Under the pieces are notes generated by a model, which made no database searches, was not told the origin of the DNA, and was given only the letters and a program-made list of their open reading frames with translations. DNA of 64,000 nt from Bordetella trematum (GTDB lineage Bacteria > Pseudomonadota > Gammaproteobacteria > Burkholderiales > Burkholderiaceae_B): the NCBI RefSeq assembly GCF_900078335.1, contig NZ_FKBR01000011.1:1-64000 (forward strand), in the 5' to 3' direction. Each line of letters opens with the position of its first letter. Position 1 is the stretch's first letter. The position numbers and the translations under genes are program-made. This document shows positions 3,116-39,162 of this stretch, piece after piece.

Positions 3116-3132
3116 TAGAATCCGCGACGATG
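3116..3132 (+). promoter_or_regulatory. -10-like TAGAAT immediately before the phoR start
   Basis: TAGAAT (3116-3121) ends nine bases before the phoR ATG, and no purine-rich ribosome site precedes that ATG. If used, transcription would start at or next to the start codon and give a leaderless phoR message in addition to read-through from phoB. No good -35 element is visible. Confidence 0.3.
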
Positions 3133-28763: not shown

Positions 28764-28778
28764 TAAAATCGGTCCATG
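28764..28778 (+). promoter_or_regulatory. -10-like TAAAAT directly before the kdsD start
   Basis: TAAAAT (28764-28769) ends 7 bases before the kdsD ATG (28776), and no ribosome site is visible between. Transcription would begin at the start codon. No convincing -35 element is seen. Confidence 0.35.
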
Positions 28779-29762
28779 AGCGAACATGTCCCTTCTTCCG
28801 CCGATGCGCTGACATCCGCGCGCAACACCCTTCAGACCGAGGCGCAGGCCATCCTGGACCTGCGCGAGCGCCTGGACACCAGTTTCTTCCACGCCGTGGC
28901 CATGCTGCTGGCCTGCAAGGGGCGGGTCGTGGTCAGCGGGCTGGGCAAGACGGGACACATCGCACGCAAGATCGCCGCCACCCTGGCCTCGACCGGCACG
29001 CCCGCTTTCTTCATGCATGCGGCCGAAGCCGCCCATGGCGATCTTGGCATGCTGACCGCCGACGATGTGCTGGTGGCGCTGTCGCACTCCGGCAGCAGCA
29101 GCGAGTTGCTGACCATTCTGCCGCTGGCCCGCCGCCTGGGCGCGGGCGTGATCGCGATTACGGGCAACCCCGACTCCGAGCTGGCGCAACAGGCCGACAT
29201 CCACCTGGACGCCAGCGTCGAACACGAGGCCTGCCCCCTCAACCTGGCCCCGACCGCCAGCACCACCACGGCACTGGCGCTGGGCGATGCCCTGGCGGTC
29301 GCCTGTCTGGAGGCGCGCGGTTTCGGCCCGGCCGACTTCGCCCGCTCGCATCCGGGCGGCGCCCTGGGCCGCCGCCTGCTGACCCATGTGCGCGACGTCA
29401 TGCGCCACGGATCGGCGCTGCCCACGGTGGCCAGCACCGATCCGCTGTTCCGCGCCCTGGAGGAAATGTCGGCCAAGGGCATGGGCATGACGGTCGTGGT
29501 CGATGATCACTTCCGCCCGGTGGGCATCTTCACCGACGGCGACCTGCGTCGCCTGATCGAGCGCCAGGGCGACGTACGCGGCCTGATGGTGGCCGAAGGC
29601 ATGACGCGCAATCCACGCAACATCGATCCCAATGCGCTGGCCGCCGAGGCAGCCGGCATCATGGACACACACCGCCTGAACCAGATGCTGGTCGTCGACG
29701 ACGACGGCGTGCTGATCGGCGCCCTCCACATGCATGACTTGATGGCAGCCAAAGTAGTATGA
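28776..29762 (+). CDS. kdsD: KdsD, arabinose-5-phosphate isomerase
   Basis: A 328-residue enzyme that converts ribulose-5-phosphate to arabinose-5-phosphate, the first step to Kdo. A SIS domain (about 30-180) has [14 protein letters not shown] and [11 protein letters not shown]. Two CBS domains (about 205-328) follow, with HVRDVMRHG and [11 protein letters not shown]. Position at the head of the kdsC-lptCAB operon supports KdsD rather than GutQ. It overlaps kdsC by 4 bases (ATGA). Confidence 0.94.
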
Positions 29763-32736: not shown

Positions 32737-33075
32737 ATGAACCTGAGCATCAGCGGTCGTCGCCTCGACGTCACCCCGGCCATCCGGGAATATGTCACGA
32801 ACAAACTGGCGCGTGTATTGCGACACTTCGACCATGTGATCGATACCCAGGTCATGCTCTCGGTGGAGCCCCTGCGGCACAAAGCCGAAATCACGATGCA
32901 TCTCAGCGGCAAGGATATCCATTGCGAAGCCGTGGATGAGAACCTGTACGCCGCGATAGACCTTCTGATCGACAAACTGGACCGCCAGGTCATCAAGCAC
33001 AAGGACAAGCTGCAAAATCACGCCAACGAGTCCGTGAAGCGACACAGCGCCGCCGAAAGCGCGCCGCAACCCTAA
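32737..33075 (+). CDS. hpf: Hpf, short-form ribosome hibernation promoting factor
   Basis: A 112-residue S30AE/Hpf protein that binds the 30S subunit and promotes 100S dimer formation in slow growth. It begins MNLSISGRRLDVTPAIREYV and has KAEITMHLSGKDIHCEA and the DLLIDKLDRQVIKHKDK helix. Length fits the short Hpf/YhbH type. It sits in the usual lptB-(rpoN)-hpf-ptsN context, but rpoN is absent. Confidence 0.93.
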   Translation: MNLSISGRRLDVTPAIREYVTNKLARVLRHFDHVIDTQVMLSVEPLRHKAEITMHLSGKDIHCEAVDENLYAAIDLLIDKLDRQVIKHKDKLQNHANESVKRHSAAESAPQP

Positions 33076-33185: not shown

Positions 33186-33280
33186 CCCCCTTCCCCGGCT
33201 TTCCCAAAATCCAACACCTCGCTTCCCACCAGTGCGCAGTCGGTCTATGCTTGCGTGCTCATCGCCTGCATCGCCTTTTT

Positions 33281-33317
33281 TTGCACCGCGTCATATAACC
33301 CTATAATGATCCGCATG
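33281..33317 (+). promoter_or_regulatory. ptsN promoter with consensus -10 at the start codon
   Basis: A perfect TATAAT (33302-33307) has TTGCAC (33281-33286) upstream with a 15-base spacer. The -10 box ends 8 bases before the ptsN ATG at 33315, so the transcript would begin at or within a base of the start codon. No ribosome site precedes that ATG. Confidence 0.6.
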
Positions 33318-33770
33318 AATCACTTGTCGCGCATCCTCCCCGCCGGCAACGTCGTGCTCGATATGCTCGCTACCAGCAAAAAACGGGCGTTCGAACAAGC
33401 CGGTCTGCTCTTTGAAAACCACCATGGGCTGGCCCGATCGGTCGTGTTCGACAGCCTGTTCGCCCGCGAGCGTCTGGGCTCCACGGCGCTGGGGCAAGGC
33501 GTGGCCGTGCCGCACGGCCGCGTCAAGGGCCTGGACCAGGCTGTGGCCGCCTTCATCCGCCTGGCGCAGCCCATTCCCTTCGATGCGCCTGACGGCCAAC
33601 CCGTTTCGATGCTGCTGTGCCTGCTGGTCCCCGAGACCGCAACGCAGCAGCACCTGGACATCCTGGCCGAACTGGCGCAGCTGATGTCCAACAAGACCCT
33701 GCGTGAAGCACTGGCCACCGAGACAGACCCGGCCGAAGTGCACCGCATCCTCACGACAGGTCAGCTCTGA
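33315..33770 (+). CDS. ptsN: PtsN, EIIA-Ntr phosphotransferase regulator
   Basis: A 151-residue EIIA-Ntr protein of the nitrogen-related PTS. The phosphorylated His is in [10 protein letters not shown] (about H67). It begins [18 protein letters not shown], the conserved start; an in-frame ATG three codons earlier (33306) overlaps the -10 box and is less likely. It is a regulatory phosphoryl acceptor that in other proteobacteria controls potassium uptake and nitrogen or envelope responses. hprK follows 11 bases later. Confidence 0.92.
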
Positions 33771-34790: not shown

Positions 34791-34808
34791 TGCCACAATC
34801 ACAGCATG
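34791..34808 (+). promoter_or_regulatory. Extended -10 element at the rapZ start codon
   Basis: TGc-CACAAT (34791-34799) is an extended -10 pattern. It ends 7 bases before the rapZ ATG (34806), and no ribosome site is present, so the message would be leaderless. The 97-base gap after hprK leaves room for an independent promoter. Confidence 0.4.
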
Positions 34809-35678
34809 TTAAGAGTCGTCCTCATTACCGGCATCTCCGGCTCTGGCAAGTCGGTGGCCCTGCGTATGCTCGAAGACGCAGGTTTTACCTGCGTGGACAA
34901 CCTGCCGCTGCGCTTTCTGACCGAGTTCGTCGCAGCCGCCCGCGATGACGGCATGGAGCGCGTGGCGGCCGCCATCGACGTGCGTTCGCCGGGCCAGCTG
35001 GCCGAGTTGCCCAACGTCATCACGGCCTTGCGCGCCATGGGCACGCAGCTCTCGGTGGTCTTCCTGGACGCCAGCACCGCCACCCTGACCCAACGCTATT
35101 CCGAATCGCGCCGCCGCCACCCCCTCACCGATCGGGCGGCACGCGGCGGACAATCGCTGTCGCTGGCCGACTGCATCGACATGGAGCGCGAACTGCTCGC
35201 GCCGGTGCGTGACCAGGAACATGTCATCGACACCTCCGACCTGACTCCGGGCCAGCTGCGCGCCTGGATCCGCGAGCTGATCGACGCCGACCGCTCCCCG
35301 CTGGTGCTGACCTTCGAATCCTTTGCGTTCAAGCGGGGCGTACCCAACGACGCCGACCTGGTGTTCGACGTGCGCTGCCTGCCCAACCCCTATTACGACC
35401 GCCACCTGCGCCCGCTCACCGGGCGCGACCAGCCGGTGGCCGAGTGGCTGTCGGGCTTCGAGATCGTCCAGCGCATGGTCGATGACATCGACGGCTTTCT
35501 GCGCCGTTGGCTGCCGCAATACACCCTGGACACCCGCAACTACCTGACGGTCGCCATCGGCTGTACGGGGGGACAGCACCGCTCGGTCTATGTGGTCGAG
35601 GAACTGGCCCGCCGCTTCAGCGAGCACGACCCGCTGCTGGTGCGCCACCGCTCCCAGTTGCCCAAAGACCCGGCATGA
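34806..35678 (+). CDS. rapZ: RapZ, RNA-binding P-loop nucleotidase
   Basis: A 290-residue RapZ/YvcJ-family protein. Walker A GISGSGKS is at 9-16; conserved blocks include CVDNLPLRFL, RRRHPLT and TVAIGCTGGQHRSVYVVEELA near the end. In enterobacteria RapZ directs RNase E to the GlmZ small RNA to control glucosamine-6-phosphate synthase. Whether that applies in Alcaligenaceae is not known. It overlaps rlpA by 4 bases. Confidence 0.93.
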   Translation: MLRVVLITGISGSGKSVALRMLEDAGFTCVDNLPLRFLTEFVAAARDDGMERVAAAIDVRSPGQLAELPNVITALRAMGTQLSVVFLDASTATLTQRYSESRRRHPLTDRAARGGQSLSLADCIDMERELLAPVRDQEHVIDTSDLTPGQLRAWIRELIDADRSPLVLTFESFAFKRGVPNDADLVFDVRCLPNPYYDRHLRPLTGRDQPVAEWLSGFEIVQRMVDDIDGFLRRWLPQYTLDTRNYLTVAIGCTGGQHRSVYVVEELARRFSEHDPLLVRHRSQLPKDPA

Positions 35679-38535: not shown

Positions 38536-38571
38536 TACAGAAAGCGTGCGCGTGAGATAATCCGCGCCATG
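38532..38571 (+). promoter_or_regulatory. diaA promoter with extended -10 at the start codon
   Basis: TGa-GATAAT (38553-38561) is an extended -10 with CTGATA (38532-38537) 18 bases upstream as a weak -35. The box ends 8 bases before the ATG (38569), and no ribosome site is present. Confidence 0.45.
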
Positions 38572-39162
38572 GATATGACCTCTCGCATGACGTCGCACTT
38601 CCGCGATGCGATGACGCTGTTCGAACAAAGCATGCACACGCTGGCCGAGCCCCTGGCCAGCGCCGTGGAGCTGCTTTTCGCGGCCCTGGCCAACAACGGC
38701 CGCATCCTGGCCTGCGGCAACGGCGGCTCGGCTTCGGACGCACAGCATTTCGTGGCCGAACTGGTGGGCCGCTTCGAGCGCGACCGCCTGCCACTGGCCG
38801 GCATCGCCCTGAATACCGACACGTCCATCCTCACGGCCGTGGCCAATGATTACGGCTTTGACGAAATCTATGAGCGCCAGGTCAATGCGCTGGGCCAGCC
38901 CGGCGATGTCCTGGTGGCCATTTCCACCAGCGGCAACTCCCCCAATGTAGTGCGCGCCATGGAAGCGGCGCGCGACCGCGAAATGCACGTCATCGCCCTG
39001 ACAGGCAAGGGCGGCGGCGTCATGGGGGAACTGATCACGCCGCACGACGTCCATCTCTGTGTGCCGCACGATCGCACCATGCGCATCCAGGAAGTCCACA
39101 TCCTGCTGCTGCATGCCCTGTGCGATGGTATCGACGCCCTTCTGCTCGGAGACACTGAATGA
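38569..39162 (+). CDS. diaA: DiaA/GmhA-family SIS-domain protein
   Basis: A 197-residue SIS-domain protein. CGNGGSASDAQHFVAELVGRFE (around 44-66) is shared by phosphoheptose isomerase GmhA and the DnaA-binding initiator DiaA. I favour DiaA because the neighbours match the E. coli run rsmI-yraN-diaA-dolP, but a GmhA role (sedoheptulose-7-phosphate isomerase) cannot be excluded from sequence. It overlaps dolP by 4 bases. Confidence 0.75.
   Translation: MDMTSRMTSHFRDAMTLFEQSMHTLAEPLASAVELLFAALANNGRILACGNGGSASDAQHFVAELVGRFERDRLPLAGIALNTDTSILTAVANDYGFDEIYERQVNALGQPGDVLVAISTSGNSPNVVRAMEAARDREMHVIALTGKGGGVMGELITPHDVHLCVPHDRTMRIQEVHILLLHALCDGIDALLLGDTE

Follow-up and report, generated by a model that had tools for sequence, protein, structure and literature searches.

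Candidate leaderless mRNAs from -10 boxes set at the start codons of ptsN, kdsD and gmhA in Bordetella trematum and its family

The genes ptsN, kdsD and gmhA of Bordetella trematum, joined in near genera by rapZ, are best read as genes with leaderless mRNAs, each with a -10 box set at its ATG, and as belonging to a class of about 40 or more such genes in the genome (we put the probability of this reading at roughly 0.86). For the first three, transcription very probably starts exactly at the start codon, whereas for rapZ the leaderless reading is moderately supported. An earlier note had proposed five genes; judged from their upstream regions, we would place three firmly in the class, regard one as probable and leave one, phoR, out. 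An apparently ordinary sigma-70 promoter is kept against the start codon of ptsN, kdsD and gmhA in most of the loci that were sampled, which come from 39 genera of one family, and such findings correct how gene starts and operons are read in this group. Leaderless reading of genes is a known but little-catalogued mode.

Boxes, starts and gene identities

The window is the whole stretch of DNA that was analyzed, 64,000 nucleotides from a 4.44-Mb draft genome in 50 contigs. Direct reading of the sequence found all five boxes at the positions and distances that the earlier note had given, and the start codon is ATG in all five genes. The features are as follows.

3116..3121, + strand: TAGAAT before phoR, 8 nt to the ATG at 3130; unconserved
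28764..28769, + strand: kdsD -10 box TAAAAT, 6 nt to the ATG at 28776
28776..29762, + strand: kdsD (KpsF/GutQ family sugar-phosphate isomerase; TIGR00393 above cut-off), proposed leaderless
32737..33075, + strand: hpf, control gene, AAGGAG (Shine-Dalgarno core) ahead of the ATG
33280..33285, + strand: ptsN -35-like hexamer TTTGCA, 16 nt from the -10 box; 10/12 matches
33302..33307, + strand: ptsN -10 box TATAAT, 7 nt to the ATG at 33315
33315..33770, + strand: ptsN (EIIA-Ntr; best model TIGR01419), proposed leaderless mRNA from the A of the ATG
34791..34799, + strand: rapZ extended -10 TGC-CACAAT (hexamer 34794-34799), 6 nt to the ATG at 34806
34806..35678, + strand: rapZ, probably leaderless, with its own promoter
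38553..38561, + strand: gmhA (formerly "diaA") extended -10 TGA-GATAAT (hexamer 38556-38561), 7 nt to the ATG at 38569
38569..39162, + strand: gmhA (phosphoheptose isomerase, SIS family; PRK13936), proposed leaderless

The ptsN product scores 135.5 bits against TIGR01419, slightly below the cut-off of 138.7. The gene at 38569 had been named diaA. Its product passes a curated cut-off only for the phosphoheptose isomerase PRK13936 (328 bits versus a cut-off of 276), whereas the DiaA model falls short (186 versus 352); GmhA is therefore the safer name, and the gene is most likely gmhA. Two of the three firmly placed genes encode enzymes of lipopolysaccharide (LPS) inner-core sugar supply.

None of the five starts has an AGGA, GGAG or GAGG core at -17 to -4, in line with the earlier claim that they have no ribosome site, and the contrast that had been drawn with other genes holds for hpf, which carries a Shine-Dalgarno core. 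A missing core is weak evidence when taken alone because just 174 of 517 called starts in a 627-kb sample have one. A promoter scan of the ptsN upstream region returned one promoter-like site (mean in shuffled sequences, 0.1).

We propose that sigma-70 RNA polymerase would bind the -10 boxes of ptsN, kdsD, gmhA and rapZ, assisted by the weak -35 TTTGCA at ptsN and by the extended TGn at gmhA and rapZ. Transcription would begin 7-8 nt past the hexamer, which puts it on the A of the ATG, give or take one or two bases. The resulting mRNA would have neither a leader nor a ribosome-binding site and, because it would lack a leader, its translation would have to initiate in leaderless fashion. In this route the ribosome recognizes a 5'-terminal AUG, Shine-Dalgarno recognition is bypassed, and stress may alter translation. 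The mRNAs of ptsN, kdsD and gmhA would presumably be translated in this way. At rapZ, such a promoter probably acts in addition to presumed read-through from hprK. A terminator was looked for between hpf and ptsN and none was found, so leadered read-through transcripts may coexist at ptsN.

Conservation in genus and family

We followed the boxes through a genus set of 15 genomes, with identical upstream sequences counted once, and a family set of 40 loci from 39 genera. The family was taken as Alcaligenaceae from the nearest named relatives by RapZ, which are Achromobacter dolens (82%), a Pusillimonas bin, an Alcaligenaceae bin and Advenella. A family locus enters the denominator if the gene could be located there, preceded by sufficient sequence and with a usable ATG. 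When the alignment put the start at another codon, as happened chiefly in kdsD with its weakly conserved N-terminus, the closest ATG in frame was used instead.

At ptsN, TANAAT lies at a gap of 5-8 nt in 14/14 distinct genus sequences, and the box is present in 31/40 family loci. For kdsD, the box is found at this gap in 14/14 distinct genus sequences and in 25/32 family loci, and for gmhA, NANAAT is found there in 15/15 and 26/29, respectively. Shine-Dalgarno cores are absent from the genus sequences of all three genes (ptsN 0/14, kdsD 0/14, gmhA 0/15) and almost so from those of the family (2/40, 0/32 and 0/29). The neighboring genes hpf and hprK have a box at 5-8 nt in 0/37 and 0/38 family loci, and hpf has a Shine-Dalgarno core in 14/14 genus and 37/37 family sequences. 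When the family upstream regions are read side by side, the fixed spacing of 5-8 nt is kept across genera and the flanks diverge.

For rapZ, the genus count covers the sequences that lay inside the fetched ptsN locus and were matched by tblastn. NANAAT at a gap of 5-8 nt occurs in 4/7 of these distinct sequences, and the box in 6/35 family loci, in near genera only. At phoR, NANAAT is found at 5-8 nt in 2/14 genus sequences. TANAAT at this gap occurs in 1/14, the window itself, and phoR was rejected as a class member on this lack of conservation. The stop codon of the upstream response-regulator gene, which from its position we take to be phoB, lies about 10-30 nt before the phoR ATG in 14/14 genus sequences. 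The leaderless proposal thus stands for ptsN, kdsD and gmhA with boxes across the family, finds moderate support in near genera for rapZ, and is not sustained for phoR.

It is improbable that the boxes are real promoters of proteins that start elsewhere, either behind ordinary leaders or at an ATG inside TATAATG (33306 for ptsN). The ATG at 33306 is in frame and was preferred by the codon-based caller, and icd (L264), one of the genome-wide cases described below, is probably an example of this kind. However, conservation of the PtsN N-terminus begins at 33315, and residue 1 is included in the alignments of the 15 best genus hits and of most family hits. Seven family loci (L217, L221, L223, L226, L230, L232 and L236) have the box and no such ATG, and in others, such as L201 and L204, the overlapping ATG is out of frame.

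The ptsN box is absent at 5-8 nt in 9/40 family loci, some of which have a -10 further upstream. In the family loci L224, L214 and L205, the ptsN TATAAT lies some 30-40 nt before the ATG, and these are leadered counterparts. The ptsN loci L062 and L056, where some 30 nt or more separate TATAAT from the ATG, are likewise natural leadered counterparts. Outside the family, where 50 nt per locus were read, the TATAAT of Polynucleobacter ptsN stands 8-9 nt ahead of the ATG, and that of two Herbaspirillum loci (L013, L033) is at a distance of roughly 35-40 nt. The Paraburkholderia, Cupriavidus and Pandoraea loci have no TATAAT in these 50 nt. Because the box is near the ATG in some loci and 30-40 nt away in others, the promoter architecture of ptsN seems to switch in evolution. 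The leaderless and the few leadered layouts form matched natural pairs for asking why genes become or stay leaderless.

A genome-wide class with the box at the start codon

In the whole genome, TANAAT-N6-7-ATG occurs at 57 sites, versus 8 for the reversed pattern. At a control spacing of 12-13 there are 14 sites versus 7 reversed; 2 of these 14 share their hexamer with a site at 6-7, and one (L291) has another ATG at 8 nt. Gene-like open reading frames, defined as at least 50 aa with a mean codon score of 0.08 or more, are opened by 41/57 sites at spacing 6-7 versus 3/14 at 12-13, and under a stricter rule (60 aa, score >0.1) 39 of the 57 sites remain gene-like. Among the 41, icd is presumed from its usual N-terminus to start at a downstream ATG, so that a fair count is about 40. 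The excess of sites and that of reading frames together point to about 40 genes as a leaderless class in this genome, and the genome-wide scan suggested in the earlier note has thus brought out such a class. The count grows with other hexamers, such as those of gmhA and rapZ, or with sites at an 8-nt gap. These genes are new members of a kind published for other beta-proteobacteria.

A Shine-Dalgarno core is found in 3/41 class members, compared with the 174/517 called genes (binomial, 8e-5). The base at -1 is a pyrimidine in 36/41, whereas the share among 438 ATG genes is 69%; this is what a YA initiator would show. A general -35 was not apparent, with a best match of 1-3 of 6 positions in 36/41 sites (a raw count), and only 1/41 has an extended -10 TGn. 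With GTG or TTG in place of ATG, the bare pattern gives 52 sites (13 GTG, 39 TTG) versus 23 in the control.

The family scan searched 151 genomes, of which 49 were summarized. Among these 49, all 33 with a control count of at most 30 have an excess (median ratio 4.15, lowest 2.39; median 54 sites versus 14), and the 8 with a control of 31-70 have a median ratio of 2.0. No clear excess was found in the 8 AT-rich family genomes with a control above 70 (median ratio 1.2, lowest 0.84), so these are uninformative.

Chance matches are an exceedingly improbable account of the boxes as a whole. Weak hexamers are common, and chance is possible for the unconserved phoR box; the 57 versus 8 sites genome-wide and the conservation across the family count against it. 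For ptsN, kdsD and gmhA we rejected chance, which is contradicted by the genome-wide excess and by family conservation.

The position of the box was also counted at called starts, in a sample comprising the window and 29 further stretches (627,028 bases, 65% G+C, 546 called genes). Start calls from codon usage mis-set ptsN (33306) and gmhA (38587), and the caller overlooked kdsD under an antisense ORF, which was removed and kdsD entered by hand. Among the 500 best-scoring ATG/GTG starts with enough upstream sequence, TANAAT is found at gaps 6-8 in 7 cases, which include phoR and kdsD, and in none at gaps 0-5 and 9-19. It reappears over the whole range of 20-38, the pattern to be expected of leadered promoters. 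All 7 occurrences at gaps 6-8 precede the 328 starts without a Shine-Dalgarno core, and none precedes the 172 with one. Across 984 near-optimal starts, TANAAT occurs 9 times at gaps 5-8 and ranks first of 60 letter orderings (mean 2.1; next 6). Eight of these are at gaps 6-7 and 1 at gap 8; beyond them, gaps 9 and 14 contribute 2 each.

A loosely thresholded sigma-70 weight matrix was dropped in favor of exact TANAAT and conservation. Its two counts at gap 6-8 were not clearly above those of permuted matrices (31 versus a mean of 22 and maximum of 36; 21 versus a mean of 12 and maximum of 22). The loose matrix blurs the peak, so the signal belongs to good -10 boxes, and weak hexamers such as that of rapZ need conservation as evidence.

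These counts also bear on whether the A/T hexamers are AT-rich, S1-binding translational elements of leadered mRNAs instead of promoters. Zheng 2011 (PMC3160421) describes, for many groups, upstream signals that are rich in A and T but lack a strong consensus. Here, however, the exact -10 consensus beats its own permutations at gaps 5-8, the hexamers keep a spacing of 6-7 nt, a -35-like hexamer accompanies the ptsN box, and gmhA and rapZ carry the extended TGn, although this is rare in the class. We therefore regard such elements as a very unlikely explanation. For the leaderless reading, we infer where transcription starts and how translation is initiated from what is observed directly: the hexamer, its spacing and conservation, the absence of Shine-Dalgarno cores and the genome-wide excess.

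Measured leaderless sets are available for two other beta-proteobacteria. In Burkholderia cenocepacia J2315, the transcription start coincides with the start codon in 72 genes and lies no more than 10 nt away in a further 42; tRNAs account for 24 of these transcripts, and regulators are over-represented among the leaderless ones (Sass 2015, PMC4603805). That regulator bias resembles the class described here. The starts of that study were measured by dRNA-seq, whereas ours are deduced from sequence and conservation, and ptsN, rapZ and phoR are absent from its main text. In Cupriavidus metallidurans CH34, 4.67% of primary starts are described as leaderless (5' UTR <5 nt), with a TAnAAT -10 motif and enrichment in the transcription and replication/repair classes (PMC7563307). 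Motif and makeup are shared with our list, although that set is a measured one and names other genes, rpoN included. The computational whole-genome survey of Zheng 2011 interpreted TANNNT at a distance of about 12 bp from the start codon, on its upstream side, as a -10 box and reports such TA-led genes in 9/71 beta-proteobacterial genomes, at a mean of 6.8% of genes (PMC3160421). In contrast, we followed the conservation of single promoters within one family.

Products were assigned by profile scan for 39 of the 41 class members, with ptsN and kdsD scanned separately, and no enrichment is claimed. Seven are regulators: HTH_20 (ArsR-like), HrcA, AraC, LysR, an OmpR-type response regulator, MerR and MarR. 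Replication and division are represented by DnaE, DnaX and FtsK, and RNA and translation by LepA, TsaB, a Dus enzyme, a Trm112-like protein, a pseudouridine synthase and a YhbY-domain protein. Metabolic products include ProC, RibD, biotin ligase, Ham1/RdgB, two NUDIX proteins, an aminotransferase and a UbiA-type prenyltransferase. Envelope products are KdsD, a class A penicillin-binding protein, a lytic transglycosylase, a polysaccharide deacetylase and a cytidylyltransferase-like protein. Five members (L253, L260, L261, L266 and L286) matched no profile at the cut-offs applied.

In function the class is a mixture, and its makeup resembles the bias in C. metallidurans and B. cenocepacia more than an envelope regulon. 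The theme of envelope and regulation put forward in the earlier note was therefore not borne out. That the class forms a functional regulon for these roles, responding to ribosome state via Hpf, is hardly likely. The leaderless layouts of kdsD, gmhA and the cytidylyltransferase-like, penicillin-binding protein and transglycosylase genes would fit it, as would the seven regulators and the position of hpf beside ptsN. Against it, the class also holds dnaE, dnaX, ftsK, lepA, tsaB, the dus gene, proC, ribD and a BrnT toxin gene, and hpf beside ptsN is a common gene order. This adjacency is all that was found of the Hpf link, which is unsupported.

The BrnT toxin gene (L087:1967-2236, + strand), which lacks a ribosome site and carries TACAAT at 7 nt from its ATG, is a leaderless toxin candidate. 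In the product of the leaderless-candidate gene at L105:51-1295 (- strand), TsaB bears a GNAT acetyltransferase domain at its C-terminus and so resembles a TsaB-RimI fusion. The leaderless layout is also seen at KdsD (28776), GmhA (38569) and the cytidylyltransferase-like protein (L267:313-798, + strand). We take the last to be possibly a heptose adenylyltransferase, so that these are perhaps three genes of LPS inner-core supply.

A PhaR-operator-like element at ptsN

The ptsN promoter is overlapped by a further element.

33278..33294, + strand: PhaR-operator-like element TTTTTGCACCGCGTCAT over the -35 and spacer of ptsN, 2 mismatches to the R. eutropha consensus

The R. eutropha PhaR consensus is YTKNTGCRNYGCANMAR, with matches accepted up to 3 mismatches (PMC12849132). 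The ptsN element, compared with this consensus from R. eutropha, lies within that limit. In the sample, a match with at most 2 mismatches occurs near the start of 6/517 called genes. Positions 1-4 from the center are conserved on both sides in a PhaR operator, and ptsN departs from the consensus at one such position. The ptsN element reads GCG where the genus phasin promoters read GCA, in every Bordetella/Achromobacter-like sequence that has the element.

The ptsN promoters of the Bordetella/Achromobacter clade carry TTTTTGCACTGCGNCAT, or a sequence near it, at about -37, with 2 mismatches in the window and most others and 3-4 in L125, L198, L201 and L219. Phasin (PF09361) is encoded in 14/15 genus genomes, including that of the window, and a PhaR box with 0-1 mismatch is found in 13/14 phasin loci (-260 to +20 of the start). 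In the remaining locus (L308) the chosen ORF is evidently on the wrong strand. PhaR-like boxes with 1-2 mismatches, at -15 to -39, also occur upstream of ptsN in four Oxalobacteraceae (L062, L024, L056, L052), where they sit in a different promoter layout, and in L018, L224 and L236. The other ptsN loci examined outside the Bordetella/Achromobacter clade have no such match.

These matches hint at a predicted PhaR operator joined to a leaderless start at ptsN in this clade, which we regard as a lead. PhaR might repress ptsN until polyhydroxybutyrate (PHB) granules titrate it off, coupling EIIA-Ntr to carbon storage; we consider this conceivable and rather doubtful. Mutants of ptsN in other bacteria are reviewed as over-accumulating PHB or PHA (PMC9049629), and the parts of that review used here give no PhaR site at ptsN. 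The link would be sensible because EIIA-Ntr restrains PHB/PHA in those bacteria and, if true, PhaR control of ptsN would close a feedback loop.

The pattern TTGCRNYGCNNCATA has 4 sites genome-wide: the one at ptsN, one before adk and two inside ORFs. Since two of the four are inside ORFs, the adk site may be chance. At this last site (L307, G000 C45:38034-38048), TTGCATTGCGGCATAAT, nearly the same element as that of ptsN, stands before an adenylate-kinase-like gene that we take from its N-terminus to be adk.
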